From an uncultured Victivallaceae bacterium (GTDB taxonomy: Bacteria > Verrucomicrobiota > Lentisphaeria > Victivallales > Victivallaceae), in assembly GCA_944392655.1 (NCBI GenBank), contig CALXXL010000013.1:1-64000 (forward strand): a stretch of 64,000 nt of DNA, written 5' to 3'. This document shows positions 1,168 to 11,034 of the stretch, in pieces. A program made the translations under genes and the position numbers. Under the pieces are notes generated by a model. It saw only the letters and a program-made list of their open reading frames with translations. It searched no databases and was not told the origin of the DNA. The number at the start of each line of letters is the position of its first letter. The first letter of the stretch is position 1.

Positions 1168-1203
1168 ATAAAAAAACCGGCGCAAATAAATATTGCGCCG
1201 GTT
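1168..1203 (-). terminator. Terminator of the secretin/PilM-like operon
   Basis: An 11-base perfect stem AACCGGCGCAA/TTGCGCCGGTT (1175-1185 with 1193-1203). Read on the minus strand it is followed by a run of seven T residues. It lies 22 bases past the stop of the last operon gene. Confidence 0.9.
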
Positions 1204-1225
1204 CATAATCAAGTTATTCTAACTT

Positions 1226-3778
1226 TTAGATAGCTTCTGTAAACGTCGGAACTCCAGTCGGTTTAACAGAATCTGGGAAGAACGGAGAACCATCCGGATT
1301 CACCAGAGAACAGGTCATGAATATCAACATGTTCACTTTCTGGGAATCTTCAGAATTACTTCTGAAGAAGCGCCCGATCAAGGGAATATCACCAAGAATC
1401 GGCACTTTATCCTCAATAACTGAAGTCTGATCTTTCACAATACCGCCCAATACAATAGTTTCTCCATCTCGGGCTGTAACCAATGTGTCTATCAAACGTT
1501 CAGCAAAAGCCGGTTCACGCAGAATTTCCATCGGCTGATTACCAAATTCGTCAGCCGGGAATGCCGATCCGGACAGAACGTATTCATAGGTAGACCAACC
1601 AATGAACTGACGCACCATAGGAGTCATACGCAAAGTAATTGTACGACGTTTTAAGTCCACCTCCGGCTTAACCATCAGCTGAATACCAATTTCTGTCGGA
1701 TCGCCATCAAAGTTAGGAATAGGACTGATATATGAGTACGCCTGCGCATTGGCATAATCAGACTGAGTAGTGGTCTGGGTTGATTCATTGTAGTCATCCG
1801 GGAAATATACCCGGCGGACCATCTTGATGATCGCAGTTTCGCCATTAAGTGTAGTAACACGCGGTGCAAACATCACATCCTTTGAATCCGACCAATCCAA
1901 CGCATATACCGAGCCGGAGAAATTATAACCATCCTGACTCCGCTGGAAAGTAAAGACTCTATCAGAACCATTGTTCAGGTGATTCATAATGGAATCGTTC
2001 TGCGAAAATTCCAACTGCCCATTGGTACCGCCTTCCGGCGTTCTGCTCAAGGTATAGTCAAAGCCAAGTTCCTGCATGTCGTTTTGAGTAACTTCGATGA
2101 ATTTCGCTTCAATCTTGACCTGCACATCCTTCATGCTCATCTGAGTCTGGATAAGTTCTTCTATTTTATCCAGATTTTCTGCCGTATTCTTGACAATCAG
2201 ACGGCTGCTGCGCCAATCATAGACAATCGTCGAACCACGCGGGAATAATATGCCATGGCTGGCAAAGAAGATCATCAGCTGATCCGGATTATGAAAATCG
2301 GTAGCCAGCAACGCTTCACGCTTTAACGGGAAAAGTTTGATTTCCATATCCCCAATCGGAACAAAAATCGGAGCAATAATAACAGCATTATTGTCAACCT
2401 TGTATTTCAGCTGAGCCTGGCGACAAATACGCTCTATAATTTCATCCAATGTCGCATTGGAAAGATTCAATGCAATTTTCGGATACTTAAGATCGTTTTC
2501 GTCAATCTCTTCATTGGCGTTGTTATAACCACCCATCGGCATCCCACCTCCAGCAGCAGGAGCCATACCGCCACCCATCATCATCATCGCCATCTGCTGT
2601 TCCGCATTCATTGGAACTCCACGCTGCTGATTATTGCGCTGATTGCGATTATTGTTATTATTGTTGCGATTACGATTATTGTTTCTCTGATTGCGGGTAT
2701 TATTACGATAGAAGTTGTTGTTGTCCTGGCTGTATGCTCCGGTATCTATCGGAATACCATTTTGGTCAACCTGAATATCTTCAGGCCAAATACAGATGAT
2801 ATTCACACCTTCGCCACTCGGGTCATTTACTCGAGCTTCATCCATTACTAAGTTGATAGCATCAGGCAAATGTTCCCCGGAAATAGAAATTTCGGGAATC
2901 CGGATGTCTTTAAGCTTATTGACCAATTCACTGGACATCGCAACCGATTTAGCTACCGGAGTATTACCAATATGAGCCTTGCTTGCCGTTTCTTTAGCAG
3001 AACGGATAGGCACTACATACCCGTTAGCCGCTTCTGCAATCATGCGCTGACCGGTTGTATTGGCACGACGTTCACCAGCATCATAAAGTTTCATATTGCA
3101 AACTTTAACGCCACGCAAAGCCTTGGTGTTGGTGTTCTGGATAGTCAATACTTCATTATATTTGGCTTTAGCTTCAATTATCTTATTATTACGATAAAGA
3201 TTATCCGCCTGAGCCAGCAAACGCGCTATTTTATCGTTGTCTGCTTTGAGATTAGGAATTACAAGCTCTTCCGTTACCTGATTGCGACGTTCTATCGCTT
3301 TCTTTTCAAAATTGTAACGCTCAATAGCTTTATCCATCTGCTCTTTCATATCAGGAGAAACTTCAGCAGCTTTCTTGGCCAATGCTATAGCCTTATCATA
3401 CTGTTCAGCTACAGATTCCCGCTCAGCTTCCTGAGCCAAAGACTGAGCATATAATTTATAGCATTCTCCAATCTGGGCCTGACAGAATTTTATTTTATCT
3501 GACAGCAATTCACTCTGCCCAATCTCTTCGTATGCCTTCCAAGCCTGCATATAGTTTTCTATAGCAGATTCATAATTGGAATTCAAATAATCCTCTTTGG
3601 CTTTGGTCACAAAGGATTCAGCTTTGACATAACGCGCATCATGTACAATTTCTTCAATAGAAATGTCCCGGCGAATGTCTAATTCTTTACTGCTTTGCGC
3701 CTCCTGGGCGCATAGCATAGCGGAACTGCAGGTAAATACCGCAACCGCCAAAAACTTTTTATTTAACTTTAAAAACAT
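1226..3778 (-). CDS. Secretin B: TPR-containing type II/IV pilus secretin
   Basis: An 850-residue outer-membrane secretin. An N-terminal signal peptide is followed by a helical TPR-like region (about 40-250), an Asn/Arg-rich then Met/Gly-rich linker (about 354-418), an STN-like N-domain (about 436-468), an N1-type repeat, and the secretin core from about 549. The core ends with the signature VPILGDIPLIGRFF near 788-802 and LIFMTCSLV. Secretins form ring channels for type IV pili, type II secretion or filamentous phage. The start at 3778 is chosen because GGAGG lies at ideal spacing; an earlier in-frame ATG at 3808 would overlap the upstream gene and leave the SD inside the coding region. It is the last gene of the operon and paralogous to its neighbour at 3802-6579. 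It resembles the Amuc_1098 type. Confidence 0.88.
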   Translation of the reverse strand: MFLKLNKKFLAVAVFTCSSAMLCAQEAQSSKELDIRRDISIEEIVHDARYVKAESFVTKAKEDYLNSNYESAIENYMQAWKAYEEIGQSELLSDKIKFCQAQIGECYKLYAQSLAQEAERESVAEQYDKAIALAKKAAEVSPDMKEQMDKAIERYNFEKKAIERRNQVTEELVIPNLKADNDKIARLLAQADNLYRNNKIIEAKAKYNEVLTIQNTNTKALRGVKVCNMKLYDAGERRANTTGQRMIAEAANGYVVPIRSAKETASKAHIGNTPVAKSVAMSSELVNKLKDIRIPEISISGEHLPDAINLVMDEARVNDPSGEGVNIICIWPEDIQVDQNGIPIDTGAYSQDNNNFYRNNTRNQRNNNRNRNNNNNNRNQRNNQQRGVPMNAEQQMAMMMMGGGMAPAAGGGMPMGGYNNANEEIDENDLKYPKIALNLSNATLDEIIERICRQAQLKYKVDNNAVIIAPIFVPIGDMEIKLFPLKREALLATDFHNPDQLMIFFASHGILFPRGSTIVYDWRSSRLIVKNTAENLDKIEELIQTQMSMKDVQVKIEAKFIEVTQNDMQELGFDYTLSRTPEGGTNGQLEFSQNDSIMNHLNNGSDRVFTFQRSQDGYNFSGSVYALDWSDSKDVMFAPRVTTLNGETAIIKMVRRVYFPDDYNESTQTTTQSDYANAQAYSYISPIPNFDGDPTEIGIQLMVKPEVDLKRRTITLRMTPMVRQFIGWSTYEYVLSGSAFPADEFGNQPMEILREPAFAERLIDTLVTARDGETIVLGGIVKDQTSVIEDKVPILGDIPLIGRFFRSNSEDSQKVNMLIFMTCSLVNPDGSPFFPDSVKPTGVPTFTEAI

Positions 3779-3801
3779 CTTTGCCTCCGGCAGTATTGTT
3801 A

Positions 3802-6579
3802 TTACCAAGTGAATTCCGAAACGCCGAATTCAGAAACACCATATTGCGACATTGACCGCCACGGAGTACCGTCTGCATTAATCAGTCTGGCAGTCACGAA
3901 AATCAGCATGTTACGCTTTTCGGAAGACGTCATCTGACTGGAGAACAGTCTGCCAATCAAAGGTATCTCACCCAACACCGGCCATTTATCATCACGATTT
4001 GTGTTATACTGTTCCATCATACCACCAAGTACTACTGTGGCTCCATCATATACCTGTACGTTAACTTCAAGTTCACGTACTGCTATTTCAGGCATCCACA
4101 TATTAACAGTCTGCTTGATAGTCGGAACTTTGGTCGTTGTCGTCGTAGGCGGATCTCCGTCAATTACAGTTGTATAGATGTAGCCAGCTTCAAGTGTCAC
4201 CGGATAATTGGAGTTTTCATGCCCCAAATATTCAGTAACCTGAGGATAAATGTACAACGAAATCGTGTAATTATCCGGATGAACAATCGGACGGCAGGCA
4301 AATACTACACCAAGATCGTTACCATCGTCAAATTCAGGTACTGGAGTCGTGATTTCAACCGTACTGCCATCGATATCAATTTCAGGATCTTCCCAGGATT
4401 CAGGATAACACCATCTTTCAACCATCTTGATCAATGCCAAATCACCACTGGTCGCAGTAAGATGAGGACTGGAAAGAACTTCAGTTCTGGAGTTCTGGCT
4501 GATCGCATTTACTGACAGTGAAAGATTTACATCACTATTCTTACCAAAAAGCGATTCACCAAAATTCGGGAAAATCTTAAGATCGTTGATAATTCTATAA
4601 GAGTTGGTTGTTGTGTCTGACGAATTTTCATTATCAGCAGCATAATGGCGCAACGGATTCTGGTTGTTCGGAACCTGCCAACTGCTTTCACCACTGGCGT
4701 ATTCAGTCGTGTGGATATTTAACGCCCAGTCAAAACCAAGCTCCTGCAAATCCAGCTCGCTGAGTTCTACAATGCGCGCTTCTATCGACACCAATGGCGA
4801 ACGGACTTCGTCCAACTGACGCAGCAGATCTTCCATCCGGCGCAGGTTTTCAACCGTATTGGTTACCAGAATTTCACCAGCACGACGATTATAGGTAATC
4901 GTAGCATTGTTCGGGAAATCTATACCACGGGCTTTAAAGTAATTTATCAAACGCGGAGTCGTTACAGGAGGAGTAGGTGCACCTATCTGTCCCATTTCAT
5001 TACGTTCATCTCCGCCATCAGTATCACTTGTATCCAGACCAAGTTCGTTCATATCAAAACCAAGAGAACCAAGACCGTTGGTAACTCCGGTCGCATAAGT
5101 TGCACCTTCATTGGTATTGGAAACCATTGATTCCATTATCGATGAGGAAATTCGACCTTCGGCAGAAATATTGTCACCATTGGCACTCATGCCCCGGCCT
5201 CCGGCCATCATAGCCAATGGATCCATCGCTCCGCCGCCCATCCCGGCACCGCCGCGATTGCCACCAAACGGGCTATTATTGTTGCGATTGGCCAAATTAC
5301 TGCCACGCACATTGGTATTACGGTTGTTGCCAGAACCCTCTTCCTGGGCAAGCTCAACATTACCCAAATGATAATACGGATCATCACTTTCAGCAATATC
5401 ATGTATCAGATCAGCACTGATGCTGAAATGACGAGTTGAAAGATCATCCATTCCACTGAATCCTAGGATTACAGCGTTGTTATCTATTTTCATTTTAAGA
5501 TTGGTCTGCATACAGACATAACGAATAAGGTCAATCAGAGGGATATTCGATACCTGCATGGTAATCTTCGGAATAGTGTCGCCAACCTGATAGGTAAACT
5601 GAGTTACAATAGAGGCTTTGGAATCAGGAGCTTCTCGCAGCAAGTTACGATTCTGCTCTGCAATAACTTCAAAAATAGATTCATCCTGATAATCAGCCGT
5701 TACCATAATCGATTCCAGCAACTGATACAGCTCATCACTGTTATTCCGCGCCTTCACTTCAATGGCTTCATCATTCTTTACACTGCCACGGATATATTTT
5801 GGAACATAGCCCCAGCTGCCATCAGCCAATAAACCATAAAGAACACCACGGCTCTGCTCAACACCCAAGCCGTACAGTTTACTCCATATACGACGCAGAC
5901 GACGATCTGCTTCCATGTTCAAAGGATCTATAAGGAATATTTTTTCCAATTTCTTGGAAGCATCCATCAAGCGATCCGCGCGTTCAAGAATGTCGGCTTC
6001 ACGGAAAAGAATGTCTATCTGTTCCTGATCATCCGGCAACTGCGGATATACTGCCAGAACATCAGTCGCTTTGTCAAACTTGATCTTTTCAATTCTTATA
6101 TTGCAGCGAGTAATAAAACGATCAACTTCATCTATCGAACGTTCATCTGCCAACAACGCACTGGATGCTTTCTTAATGGCTTCGGCGTATTTGTCTTCAT
6201 CAGCCAGAGCCTGAGCCTCGGCCATAATAGCACCAACCCATTGCGTCTTCATGGCATCATATTCCAATGTATACGCAGCTGACAGCTCCTTCGCCCAGTC
6301 TCCAGGCGCTGCTTTTAACATCTCAATCGCCTTGGCATACTCAACTCCGGCTTCCGAATACTTTCCTTCCTGAGTCAGCTTCGCAGCTGTATCACGAACA
6401 GCTATCGCAGCTTCAATCTCGGCGGAACGCTCCTGGTTGATCTGCTCTGCAGCAGACAGCTCAGTCGCGGAATCAGTATCTTCGGCAGCAACCGCCGTGC
6501 CAAGCGTAACCGTCAACTGACAGGCCAACCACAAGGCGCAGAACCGACCCGGAAATTTTGTTATTCCCAATCCTTTCAT
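3802..6579 (-). CDS. Secretin A: Amuc_1098-like TPR secretin
   Basis: A 925-residue protein. The signal peptide ends near AVAAE; TPR-like helices follow (about 40-240), then an STN-type N-domain (about 345-370), a low-complexity Asn/Gly/Met-rich insert (about 416-476), an N1-type domain with VTNTVENLRRMEDLL, and the secretin core from about 595. The core includes VVLGGMMEQ and the terminal signature VLGEIPLIGRLF near 868-880. It should assemble as an outer-membrane multimer with periplasmic N-domains reaching the inner-membrane proteins encoded upstream. Only 23 bases separate it from secretin B, with which it shares domain order but not lengths. In Akkermansia the matching position holds a single secretin; the tandem pair here is the notable difference. 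Confidence 0.88.
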   Translation of the reverse strand: MKGLGITKFPGRFCALWLACQLTVTLGTAVAAEDTDSATELSAAEQINQERSAEIEAAIAVRDTAAKLTQEGKYSEAGVEYAKAIEMLKAAPGDWAKELSAAYTLEYDAMKTQWVGAIMAEAQALADEDKYAEAIKKASSALLADERSIDEVDRFITRCNIRIEKIKFDKATDVLAVYPQLPDDQEQIDILFREADILERADRLMDASKKLEKIFLIDPLNMEADRRLRRIWSKLYGLGVEQSRGVLYGLLADGSWGYVPKYIRGSVKNDEAIEVKARNNSDELYQLLESIMVTADYQDESIFEVIAEQNRNLLREAPDSKASIVTQFTYQVGDTIPKITMQVSNIPLIDLIRYVCMQTNLKMKIDNNAVILGFSGMDDLSTRHFSISADLIHDIAESDDPYYHLGNVELAQEEGSGNNRNTNVRGSNLANRNNNSPFGGNRGGAGMGGGAMDPLAMMAGGRGMSANGDNISAEGRISSSIMESMVSNTNEGATYATGVTNGLGSLGFDMNELGLDTSDTDGGDERNEMGQIGAPTPPVTTPRLINYFKARGIDFPNNATITYNRRAGEILVTNTVENLRRMEDLLRQLDEVRSPLVSIEARIVELSELDLQELGFDWALNIHTTEYASGESSWQVPNNQNPLRHYAADNENSSDTTTNSYRIINDLKIFPNFGESLFGKNSDVNLSLSVNAISQNSRTEVLSSPHLTATSGDLALIKMVERWCYPESWEDPEIDIDGSTVEITTPVPEFDDGNDLGVVFACRPIVHPDNYTISLYIYPQVTEYLGHENSNYPVTLEAGYIYTTVIDGDPPTTTTTKVPTIKQTVNMWMPEIAVRELEVNVQVYDGATVVLGGMMEQYNTNRDDKWPVLGEIPLIGRLFSSQMTSSEKRNMLIFVTARLINADGTPWRSMSQYGVSEFGVSEFTW

Positions 6580-6624
6580 TCTTTTCTACCTTATTTTTTT
6601 ATTGTTCAAGACAAATTTGTTTTC

Positions 6625-7731
6625 TTATCTATCTATTCGGGCACGCATCGGAATCTTAGCTTGAGTTGTTAATTCAAACTTTTCACCATCTTGATTTTCC
6701 AATGAGACTACGCCTTTGTTCATATCCATAGACATAACCTCCCAACGCTCTCTGCCGCTTGCCGAATTGCCGATATCTATCTTAGTACCTTCCTTAATAG
6801 CAATACTGCGACCGGTACCTAAATTCATTATCGTCATTGTCATCTCAGGAATATCACATGATTCCTGCCCAACAGAAATAACAAAATCTTTTCCATTGCT
6901 GTTCAATTTCATCTTGGCACTGTTTTCATCCAAAATCTCTACCAATGTGTAGGAACGACGATCTATGGATATCAAACCTCCAACACGCAAATCCCTGGTA
7001 CGGCCATTACTCGCCAGAAGAAGCGAAATTGATCCGCGGGCACTATCTACAGACTGCAGACTTGCTCCAAATTGCGGCGGACGGGCACTCTCTATGTAAA
7101 GCAGGTCCGTCAGCGGCGGATGAGATGCCGCATCTTCCAAATCCGTTCCACACATATATTCATAAAGATTGCTGAAACCATCTCCATCCTGATCCCGCTT
7201 CGCATCCCCCGCATAAGCCGGATTCAAGAACGAAAATTGCTCTTCATAAATGTCCGGCAAACCATCACCATCAGTATCTGATGGACGGGTACCGAAGTCC
7301 GCATCATCATTAAAACTCTTCGCCGGAGCAGTCAAACCGTTGCCGCAGACCGGACAGGCTCCATTGGCAACAAAGTAATAGGTCGGGATAAAACGACCAC
7401 ATCCAGGACAGGCAGCCGCCTTTAACGGAGATAACAAATCTGTTACATGATCAACCGCAATCCCTGAAACTTGTTTGCCTTCAGCATCAACCATGCGAGT
7501 ACCATAAGCCTTCCATTCAACTTTCGGCTTGAATACGGAGTCTATAATGAAACGACCTTCCTTAAAGTTGACAGGTTCATAGTCAACTTCCGGTTCCTTA
7601 ATCTGCAAGTCACGCTCACTTATATTCTTGGCATCTTTGGTAATCTGCAAAAGATATATCAACAGAACAAAGAACACCAGGAGCAATACACCCAGCAGAA
7701 CCTTCTCATAATGTTTTGAAAAAAAGTTCAA
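6625..7731 (-). CDS. Membrane-anchored zinc-ribbon/TSP3-repeat protein (Amuc_1099 position)
   Basis: A 368-residue protein with one N-terminal transmembrane helix (about 10-30) and a large, presumably periplasmic, domain. A CPGCG...CPVCG pair at about 106-129 forms a zinc-ribbon motif. Two Asp-rich calcium-type repeats follow, DTDGDGLPD (about 150) and DQDGDGFSN (about 179), as in thrombospondin type 3 repeats. The C-terminal third is probably beta-rich (SH3-like, PilP-like?). The start is TTG at 7731: AGGAGG sits five bases upstream, overlapping the stop of the preceding gene. By gene order it corresponds to Amuc_1099 of Akkermansia; a PilO/PilP-like alignment role is inference. Confidence 0.75.
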   Translation of the reverse strand: MNFFSKHYEKVLLGVLLLVFFVLLIYLLQITKDAKNISERDLQIKEPEVDYEPVNFKEGRFIIDSVFKPKVEWKAYGTRMVDAEGKQVSGIAVDHVTDLLSPLKAAACPGCGRFIPTYYFVANGACPVCGNGLTAPAKSFNDDADFGTRPSDTDGDGLPDIYEEQFSFLNPAYAGDAKRDQDGDGFSNLYEYMCGTDLEDAASHPPLTDLLYIESARPPQFGASLQSVDSARGSISLLLASNGRTRDLRVGGLISIDRRSYTLVEILDENSAKMKLNSNGKDFVISVGQESCDIPEMTMTIMNLGTGRSIAIKEGTKIDIGNSASGRERWEVMSMDMNKGVVSLENQDGEKFELTTQAKIPMRARIDR

Positions 7732-7740
7732 AATAGCCTC

Positions 7741-9159
7741 CTATTCGGTCTCTAATTCATCTGTTTCATAAGCAACATAATCCACGACAATTGAAGCCGT
7801 ACAGCGATCGCCAACCCCAATTACCGGACGACCATAATTACGACGCATTCCAGCCGCAATCTTCTCTTCAGATTCTTCGACCTTCATGACTTCTTCTATA
7901 AAAGTACGACCTTCTTCGTATATAGTCGGATTAGCCCATGATACATCCTCTATGCTGCCACGCCGAATAGACAAAGCTGAACTGCGGCCATCCGATGACA
8001 CCCCAACACTTCCGGTCATCCGACGTACAGGCTGTGCCGCCACAGCTCCAGCTGCCGCATTTTCATTCGTCTCAGATATACTCTTGTTTATATTTTCATC
8101 TATAAGGATCTGAGCCGCATCGAAATCCTTCATCAGCGCCATGCGACGGACTATATATACACGACTGTCTACATAAGCATCAGCCAACACTTCTGTAAGA
8201 TTACGAATCTCATCCAAAGTACCGGAAACCTCTATCTGGAACCGATAATAACGGAATCCATTCGAACCTTCAATCCCGTCAAGACTGTCTATTGAAAATG
8301 TCTCCAGAGAGCCGATGTCACTCTTGGCAATCCGCTGGCAAAGGTCACAAACAATGTCCCAAACTTTACTTATTTTTACAATGTCAGCAGGCGCAGGTTC
8401 ACCACTACCGGTGTAGACAAATGAGAAATTCTGCGCATCCTTACTCAAACCAACATTGTTTTCAATAAAGACATCTATCAATTTCTTTTTGGTCGAGTTC
8501 ACATACGCTTTACAACGAGCTCCGTTACCACCAAAATTACGCGGAACACCAAGTGATGCCAACAACAACTCTTTCGCTGAAGCAGAATCAGCATTGCCAA
8601 TATCTTCCAACGTGTACTTGCTGGCTTCCTTTACAAAAGCCTCCATCGCACGATTCCACTTCGCACGATCCCATGTACATACCTTAACCGTGGTTACACT
8701 GCCGTCTTCGTTCTCTATTTCCTGCTCAGGAGCACCTTCTATATTTCCGTTGCTTTCGACAAACAAAGCATATATCTGATCCCCCTGCTGGTTGCGGTTT
8801 ATACCATCTTCCCAATAAGAGCGGAACAACGACCTGAAATCATCCGACTCGATGCCGAGGACTTCGCAGAAGCTGTTCAAGGCACGCTCATAAGGACGAC
8901 CAAAGTGCTGATACAAGATTTCAACTTTTTCCTTGTATTTAGCAGCATCAGCCAACAAATTGTCATAGTTTTCCTCAGCGGGAGATGGTTTCGCCGAATT
9001 TAACTGCTCAATCTTAGACTTCTGACCTTGCAGATCTTTCGCCGCTTTCAGCATCTCTCCATTCTGAATTAAAACAAATACTAACAATACCAGCACAATT
9101 ATAACAGATACCGCAATAGCTGTCATAAACCCGATATGTTTTTTTATGAGTCTTTTCAT
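7741..9159 (-). CDS. Amuc_1100-like pilus-associated membrane protein
   Basis: A 472-residue protein with a short cytoplasmic tail, one transmembrane helix (about 12-32), a helical stretch (about 35-85), and an alpha/beta periplasmic region. Part of that region, around GTLDEIRNLTEVLADA, resembles the ferredoxin-like fold of PilO/GspM-type proteins. The conserved block YERALNSFCEVLGI and the operon position between a PilM-like protein and the secretin side match the Amuc_1100 family. Akkermansia Amuc_1100 is reported as an outer-membrane-associated, TLR2-active protein of a pilus-like locus. The Ala-rich segment near 365-385 is probably a flexible linker. Membership is judged from motif, topology and synteny together. 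Confidence 0.72.
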   Translation of the reverse strand: MKRLIKKHIGFMTAIAVSVIIVLVLLVFVLIQNGEMLKAAKDLQGQKSKIEQLNSAKPSPAEENYDNLLADAAKYKEKVEILYQHFGRPYERALNSFCEVLGIESDDFRSLFRSYWEDGINRNQQGDQIYALFVESNGNIEGAPEQEIENEDGSVTTVKVCTWDRAKWNRAMEAFVKEASKYTLEDIGNADSASAKELLLASLGVPRNFGGNGARCKAYVNSTKKKLIDVFIENNVGLSKDAQNFSFVYTGSGEPAPADIVKISKVWDIVCDLCQRIAKSDIGSLETFSIDSLDGIEGSNGFRYYRFQIEVSGTLDEIRNLTEVLADAYVDSRVYIVRRMALMKDFDAAQILIDENINKSISETNENAAAGAVAAQPVRRMTGSVGVSSDGRSSALSIRRGSIEDVSWANPTIYEEGRTFIEEVMKVEESEEKIAAGMRRNYGRPVIGVGDRCTASIVVDYVAYETDELETE

Positions 9160-9174
9160 AATCTTCTCCCGTTA

Positions 9175-11034
9175 TTAATCCTGCGCAAGCGAGTCTTTCA
9201 GGCGAAGACAGATGCGGAACGAAGTAACATTCATACTGCCATCAGTACCCTGAGTATATTCGTATTTGAATGAATCACTGTCTCCTCCGGCAAAGTATTC
9301 GGAATTGTTCAGGTTTTCCTGAAGTATCGTTTCCGGAGGAATACCACCGGCCAAAACCAGGGAGTGACCTTCTATAACAATCCACTCAACTGTATTCATC
9401 TCTATCAGCTTCGACGGAGCAAGATTCATCCCGCCCATAGTAGTATTGCCACCACGGGCACCACCACCAGGAGCCATACCCCCCATCATCATCATCATCA
9501 TCGGATCTACACCGCCAGCAGCACTTCCCACCACACGACGACTCTGAGTAATGTCATTGAACGGCTCCATATAAGTAAGCCACATCGTATCCGGCATGAC
9601 ACGTTCAAGTTCCATTATCAATTTAGTCCAATCATCCCGTTTGTCTATGAGACTCAATGCCGCATCATAATCGGAAACAGCAGAATCCAATTCACTTTTG
9701 GCAGCTGCAACCTTATCCGCCTGAGCCTTGATCTCCTTATACTTGCCAAGACTGCGCTCATAAAGCTGTCTGTCATAATTGGTACGCTGATTTAATCCGA
9801 ACCATAATAAACACATACATACTATTGCCGAAATCGCACTGGCATAGAAGAACGGTTTACGCCGGCGTAATGCTTCATCCTGCTTGATTGATTTCGACAT
9901 TAAAGATATCTGCACCGGACAGTTGGCTATTTGACGCAACCCCAACCCAAGCAACGACGGGAATAACTGCGCAACATCTTTCAACTTATCCTTGTCTACA
10001 TCATCCGCAATTACCGCAATCGGGAACACATTCAAATATTCTACCGGAATACGCAGCTTTTCACAGAAGAAGTGCGGCGTATAGGGAATAATAGAACTGC
10101 CACCACACAAGTACAGCTTTTCCGGCTTCTTTCCGGAATACTGGGAACGCCAGAGGTTAATCGAACGGTTAACTTCCCCGTGCAAACGGGTCATTACGTT
10201 ACGGCAGATCTTGGATATCGTTGCCGCAACTTCAGAATCAGGATCCTCATAAGCACCGCCCAAGGCAACAAATCCCTGACGCCGCTTGAGCTCTTCAGCA
10301 TCTATAAAACTTATATTGAATTCTTTGGCTATCTGCTGAGTAACCGCATCGCCAGCAATCGGAATCGGACGGATAAATACCCGGCCACGTTCCAGGAATA
10401 TCAAACTGGATGAACGGCCGCCAATATCAAGAATCATTTCACAGGCATTCTCGCCTACATGATTGGCTGTCGCCGCATTAAATGTCGCAGTGGAGGCGAT
10501 TTCTATGGAAAGTATGTCCTTTCCGGAATCCTGTATTACATCTGTTACCTGTGAAAGCAGATCAGCTTTTACCGCAACATACAGTGCTTCCAACTCATTT
10601 CCGCCAAGCAGTGCTTCTGCATCATCAACGCTGGAGGACTCGTCCGCAGAAATAGAGTGACTGATTAACTGATAAGCCCATGCCACTTCATCCATCGGAT
10701 AAGGCACGGTCTGACGGGCTTCAAATTCAATGATCTTGGCCAACTGCTCACGCTGCCCGGCCAAGGGGGGCAACTTGCTTAAACGCGAAAAGGCAGCCTG
10801 CCCAGAAATAGCCACCCGCACCTGCTTTGAGCTGAAATGGTTATTGGCCAGCATTTTACGATAAGCCACCGCAAAGCCGTCCAGAAATTCGCCCTGCGCA
10901 TACTCTTCGCCATATTCCTCAATAGCGTAACCGGTAAGAATCATTCCACCGGACAACGGCATCAAGAATTCGGCCATTTTTAGACTGTTGGCGCCAACGT
11001 CTATCGCCAGAATTGTATTTTCCTTTTTTGCCAT
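9175..11034 (-). CDS. PilM-PilN-like fusion protein (Amuc_1101 type)
   Basis: A 619-residue protein. Residues 1-370 form an actin-like ATPase of the PilM/FtsA type: IDVGANSLKMAE phosphate-1 loop, ILDIGGRSSSLIFLERG phosphate-2 loop, and LYLCGGSS near the adenosine site. A single transmembrane helix follows (about 390-412), then a coiled coil (about 415-455) and a PilN-like periplasmic part. The periplasmic part carries a run of six Met then Gly-rich sequence near 511-530. In classical type IV pili PilM and PilN are separate proteins; here one polypeptide bridges cytoplasm and periplasm. It is the first gene of the operon and has only a weak SD. Confidence 0.82.
   Translation of the reverse strand: MAKKENTILAIDVGANSLKMAEFLMPLSGGMILTGYAIEEYGEEYAQGEFLDGFAVAYRKMLANNHFSSKQVRVAISGQAAFSRLSKLPPLAGQREQLAKIIEFEARQTVPYPMDEVAWAYQLISHSISADESSSVDDAEALLGGNELEALYVAVKADLLSQVTDVIQDSGKDILSIEIASTATFNAATANHVGENACEMILDIGGRSSSLIFLERGRVFIRPIPIAGDAVTQQIAKEFNISFIDAEELKRRQGFVALGGAYEDPDSEVAATISKICRNVMTRLHGEVNRSINLWRSQYSGKKPEKLYLCGGSSIIPYTPHFFCEKLRIPVEYLNVFPIAVIADDVDKDKLKDVAQLFPSLLGLGLRQIANCPVQISLMSKSIKQDEALRRRKPFFYASAISAIVCMCLLWFGLNQRTNYDRQLYERSLGKYKEIKAQADKVAAAKSELDSAVSDYDAALSLIDKRDDWTKLIMELERVMPDTMWLTYMEPFNDITQSRRVVGSAAGGVDPMMMMMMGGMAPGGGARGGNTTMGGMNLAPSKLIEMNTVEWIVIEGHSLVLAGGIPPETILQENLNNSEYFAGGDSDSFKYEYTQGTDGSMNVTSFRICLRLKDSLAQD

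Follow-up and report, generated by a model that had tools for sequence, protein, structure and literature searches.

In Akkermansia muciniphila the Amuc_1098-1101(-1102) genes form a type IV pilus cluster (PMC5332112, PMC4960237), whose PilQ (Amuc_1098) has been described as the outer-membrane type IV pilus secretin; a homologue was also noted in Lentisphaera araneosa (PMC4960237). The window analysed here, a 64,000-nucleotide stretch of DNA from an uncultured Victivallaceae bacterium, holds a related operon. Reading of its open reading frames gave five collinear genes on the minus strand from 11034 to 1226, listed here in transcription order with the terminator that follows them.

9175..11034, minus strand: PilM/PilN fusion (Amuc_1101-like), 619 aa; NCBIfam NF045709 and Pfam PilM_2
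7741..9159, minus strand: Amuc_1100-like, predicted PilO-type inner-membrane protein with an extra helical insertion, 472 aa; AlphaFold2, VIA-align and Foldseek
6625..7731, minus strand: Amuc_1099-like protein (zinc and TSP3 motifs), probable PilP/GspC counterpart; NCBIfam NF042425, conserved residues and structural match
3802..6579, minus strand: secretin A, 925 aa; Pfam Secretin, NCBIfam Amuc_1098 and tree clade A
1226..3778, minus strand: secretin B, 850 aa; Pfam Secretin, NCBIfam Amuc_1098 and tree clade B
1174..1204, minus strand: intrinsic terminator closing the operon; 12-pair stem with seven GC pairs, and a T tract

The Akkermansia cluster (our locus L078) shares with the operon the order PilM-like, Amuc_1100, Amuc_1099 and secretin in the direction of transcription, as well as the Amuc_1100 fold, and in both genomes the motor genes lie elsewhere. 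However, Akkermansia has a single secretin where the operon and the whole order have two, the Amuc_1100-like protein of the operon is larger by an added helical region, and by inspection a SecG-like gene adjoins its PilM, with no Amuc_1102 counterpart recognised there. The proteobacterial type IVa PilM-N-O-P-Q system resembles the operon in the Pfam PilM domain, the PilO fold (Z 10.1), a secretin with N-domains and the M-N-O-P-Q order, but the operon fuses PilM with PilN, duplicates PilQ and may assign the role of PilP to a membrane-anchored zinc/TSP3 protein. With the GspC/GspD/GspL/GspM proteins of type II secretion systems (T2SS) the operon has the ancestry of the secretin and, from a match to GspB, of the putative HR domain in common, whereas the genome keeps a separate complete T2SS beside it. 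The original prediction of an envelope module of the Amuc_1098-1101 type is thus borne out by family matches of all five genes; its gene order and terminator hold, and its single secretin gives way to two tandem genes.

In Pfam and NCBIfam, PilM and the two secretins gave secure matches, whereas those of the two middle proteins were weak. Scores relative to the curated NCBIfam cut-offs were 260 and 237 bits for the secretins (Amuc_1098, cut-off 750), 43 of 50 for Amuc_1099, 29 of 180 for Amuc_1100 and 395 of 650 for Amuc_1101. Since all of these fall below the Akkermansia equivalog cut-offs, we class the five proteins, by that standard of sequence scoring, as homologues of Amuc_1098-1101 and not as equivalogs. 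The gene order recurs far above chance: of about 120 related loci, selected for carrying a PilM gene, nearly all have it, and a component went undetected in six. The Rfam search of the operon's 5' leader returned no riboswitch or known RNA above chance.

The PilM/N fusion matched the Amuc_1101 model NF045709 with an E value of 5e-118, TIGR01175 with 2.5e-30, and Pfam PilM_2 with 1.7e-22 across residues 11-368. Beyond residue 368 follow a predicted membrane stretch and then a PilN-like tail, in which coverage by the Amuc_1101 model reaches only residue 498. The PilN tail and both secretins (positions 9175-11034, 3802-6579 and 1226-3778) contain mutually similar, low-complexity loops rich in Met and Gly, for example DPMMMMMMGGMAPGGG and MAMMMMGGGMAPAAGGG. 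Among 149 long frames sampled from the same genome such loops were limited to these three proteins. Among relatives they occurred in both PilN and secretin in 11 cases, in PilN only in 6, in the secretin only in 1 and in neither in 82, so that the loops of the two proteins tend to co-occur, in counts that ignore kinship.

The NCBIfam match of the Amuc_1100-like protein was weak (E 6e-7), and neither it nor the Amuc_1099-like protein had a useful sequence match among PDB sequences; the folds of both were therefore predicted with AlphaFold2, using 60 homologues each. The model of the Amuc_1100-like protein (pLDDT 85.5) aligned in VIA-align to Amuc_1100 crystal structures with Z scores of 17-19 over about 164 residues (6lad_B: Z 19.2, rmsd 2.4 over 164) and to PilO 2rjz_B with Z 10.1 and rmsd 2.0 over 92 residues, and Foldseek matched it to 6laf (E 1e-6). 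The original prediction pointed to the host signalling known for Amuc_1100; what the protein here has in common with Amuc_1100 is the predicted fold, at about 11% identity. From the Z scores to Amuc_1100 and PilO, we read the modelled protein as PilO-type, enlarged by a helical region.

The Amuc_1099-like protein matched NCBIfam NF042425 with an E value of 4e-11. Its architecture comprises a membrane anchor, a Cys4 (CPxC..CPxC) zinc-type site, Asp-rich TSP3-type motifs and C-terminal beta domains; Cys108, Cys111, Cys126, Cys129 and the Asp motifs are nearly invariant across 60 homologues. Among 982 chains the structure closest to its model (pLDDT 88.7) was the GspB HR domain 4wfw, with 69 residues aligned within residues 217-297 and a Z score of 7.1, a value short of what we treat as safe and in the range possible for a common arrangement. 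GspB belongs to the HR family together with PilP and GspC, and on the strength of that membership the match suggests that the Amuc_1099-like protein is a PilP/GspC counterpart with an HR-type domain. Of the structures that the original prediction had wanted modelled, the Amuc_1100/PilO fold was thus recovered, while the HR domain is only suggested.

The five-gene operon, examined through its open reading frames and Pfam, encodes no PilB, PilT, PilC, PilD or pilin, and its locus no GspE, GspF or pseudopilins. In that narrow sense the original description of a system with no motor stands, but it fails for the genome (2.34 Mb, 95% complete), where another contig (C3, minus strand) carries PilB, PilB, PilT and PilC in one cluster, without PilM or a secretin and with CoaX just past it. 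A prepilin peptidase (PilD) is encoded on contig C18, and 15 N-methyl prepilin N-termini are scattered over the genome, among which a confident major pilin was not found. The proposed search for PilB, PilC and PilD therefore located all three, and prepilins in addition. PilM was found nowhere else in the genome, and since the motor cluster lacks it, the two half-clusters complement each other. For the same reason, the uniqueness of PilM, we rejected the operon as a duplicate of a complete type IV pilus operon elsewhere; contrary to that earlier concern, the other complete system is a T2SS on contig C11, with its own GspL, GspM, GspC, GspD, GspE, GspF and pseudopilins, accompanied by a Tad-type set on contig C1. 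Both PilB proteins on C3 carry MshEN domains, which often bind c-di-GMP; such a tandem pair of PilB-type ATPases with MshEN domains (L011:8322-11766) recurs across the phylum. A further 464-aa secretin (L118:5556-10405, corresponding to about 81.5-86.4 kb of contig C1 in G000) adjoins an HlyD-type adaptor, an ABC ATPase and a MacB-like permease, and the set looks as if a secretin had replaced TolC in an ABC exporter.

Relatives connect the two halves. In genome G052, which belongs to the same order of bacteria, a single strand carries, in this sequence, PilM/N, the Amuc_1100-like and Amuc_1099-like genes, secretin A, secretin B, PilB, PilB, PilT, PilC and CoaX. In G135, a member of the same genus, motor and operon share one contig and strand at a distance of 23 kb, and the orthologues are 78-94% identical to those studied here; the flanking genes on contigs C13 and C3 had no match among the G135 genes that lie between motor and operon. 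Of the 41 loci read, only G052 has a full motor next to the operon, and two others have some of the motor genes nearby; because adjacency is this rare, gene order points to the separation of motor and envelope genes as the usual layout across the phylum. PilM-type matches, some of them weak, were obtained in 139 of 145 phylum genomes, and PilT exceeded its cut-off in 137 of 145. One genome of the same class at 92% completeness (G083) has PilT and no PilM-type match.

We consider it likely, with a probability of roughly 0.8, that the operon encodes the alignment and outer-membrane parts of a type IV pilus of the PVC type, that the motor of this pilus acts in trans, and that one machine needs both secretins. 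The separate cluster would provide the extension ATPases (the two PilB), the retraction ATPase PilT and the platform protein PilC, and other loci would contribute the pilins and PilD. We infer that the envelope and motor modules function jointly despite lying on different contigs here, and that their product would be a retractable pilus. Recruitment of a motor from elsewhere, one of the two options in the original prediction, fits the C3 cluster, the unique PilM and the adjacency in G052. The other option, assembly of something different from a classical pilus, started from the missing motor in the operon itself; the complete PilB-PilB-PilT-PilC set in the genome, adjoining the operon in a relative, largely refutes a motorless structure, which we regard as highly improbable. 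Less remote, though still unlikely, is a role of the module in type II-like secretion or in the export of a pseudopilus, powered by the T2SS motor, instead of in a retractable pilus. The genome does hold a complete T2SS, PilM/N/O/P-type and GspL/M/C-type parts have a common ancestry, and many long prepilins occur in the lineage. However, the C11 system brings its own set from GspL to GspF, small relatives such as G022 retain the tandem secretins without a good GspD match, and it is PilT that tracks the module, whereas the T2SS has no PilT.

Both secretin genes matched the family models, with E values of 6e-28 (secretin A) and 1e-30 (secretin B) to Pfam Secretin and of 4e-70 and 5e-77, respectively, to NCBIfam Amuc_1098. 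Secretin A consists of a signal peptide, a TPR-like N-terminus, N0/N1-type domains and the secretin core. For secretin B we read the start as ATG 3778, behind a GGAGG site, rather than the mechanical TTG 3808; it is probably the true start and lies 23 bases past the stop of secretin A, a spacing equal in many relatives. In both proteins the core is intact and the whole domain set is kept, and group-specific residues are few, which led us to reject domain loss as what separates A from B; self-piloting by lipidation was rejected as well, the lipobox being present in neither.

Of 64 untruncated loci in the genome_contigs set, 63 have both secretins, and the tree places the remaining one, L199, as a class-level outgroup. 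Both are also present in 16 order loci of the first panel and in all 18 extra order genomes; the three sets partly overlap. The second secretin is split only in locus L152, possibly by a sequencing frameshift. Class outgroups have one secretin, and so do the other loci of the phylum that could be read, apart from G078 (locus L079), which belongs to another bacterial family and has an independent tandem duplication of the pilus secretin. In the secretin tree (LG+G4) A and B form reciprocal clades (SH-aLRT 100 and 99), and their grouping received 88 with and 97 without a distant outgroup. We interpret this topology as a single duplication in the ancestor of the order, with both copies retained. 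The two evolve at similar rates (tree lengths 35.8 and 33.3). An older duplication followed by loss in the class outgroups, with A grouped with the single secretins of the class, was 16.8 log units worse (p-AU 0.063) and is disfavoured rather than rejected, and joint duplication with the PilB pair was rejected because the latter is phylum-wide. In the literature searched, a limited library, we found no description of a pilus operon with two secretins.

Branch rates were compared on a fixed species tree across 67 loci. With the other three genes removed, the A-B partial correlation was 0.66, that of the PilO-type/PilP-type pair 0.45 and that of all remaining pairs at most 0.25. GspD of the T2SS served as a control for paralogy in 26 genomes, although GspD paralogues may be mixed among them; there A-B gave 0.63, while A-GspD (0.20) and B-GspD (0.12) were not significant. 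These values argue against fold likeness alone as the source of the covariation, to which adjacency or joint expression possibly contributes. Because PilM with the Amuc_1100-like protein reached 0.85 in the 26-genome set, above A-B, we read rate covariation as reflecting partnership in the operon and not direct contact.

On this sequence-based evidence we favour service of both secretins in one pilus machine, the ancestral gene having duplicated once and both copies having been kept because that machine would need both. How they might be arranged is a more tentative matter. Two homomeric gates, in which A and B form separate rings on a common inner-membrane platform and pass different filaments or cargo, such as the many long DG-type prepilins, are a serious possibility that we place a little short of even odds: a complete domain set and core with few group-specific residues would allow each to form its own ring, and the pair of PilB copies, together with the prepilin-like proteins, of which there are at least 15, offers alternative partners. 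Yet the PilB pair, being found phylum-wide, did not arise together with the secretin pair, neither secretin is ever lost singly in untruncated loci of the order, and the A-B rate covariation is strong. Co-assembly of A and B into one hetero-oligomeric outer-membrane channel of the type IV pilus is a real possibility, to which we give less than even odds. The secretins of solved structure that we know of are homo-oligomers, and the literature searched yielded no report of a mixed one. That one of the two is a decaying or regulatory copy, as clade-specific substitutions at a few otherwise conserved positions might hint, is scarcely credible, since both frames are open in essentially all loci, core residues are conserved and tree lengths are alike.

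Across the PVC bacteria, these results firmly assign the Amuc_1100 family to the PilO-type components of a pilus machine, and the usual split layout of motor and envelope genes warns against labelling such operons motorless. What is new in the operon is the order-wide secretin pair, where nearly all relatives have one. With two secretin paralogues that seem obligate throughout an order, nature offers a direct route to the question of whether secretins can form heteromeric rings, or whether a single pilus platform can serve two gates.
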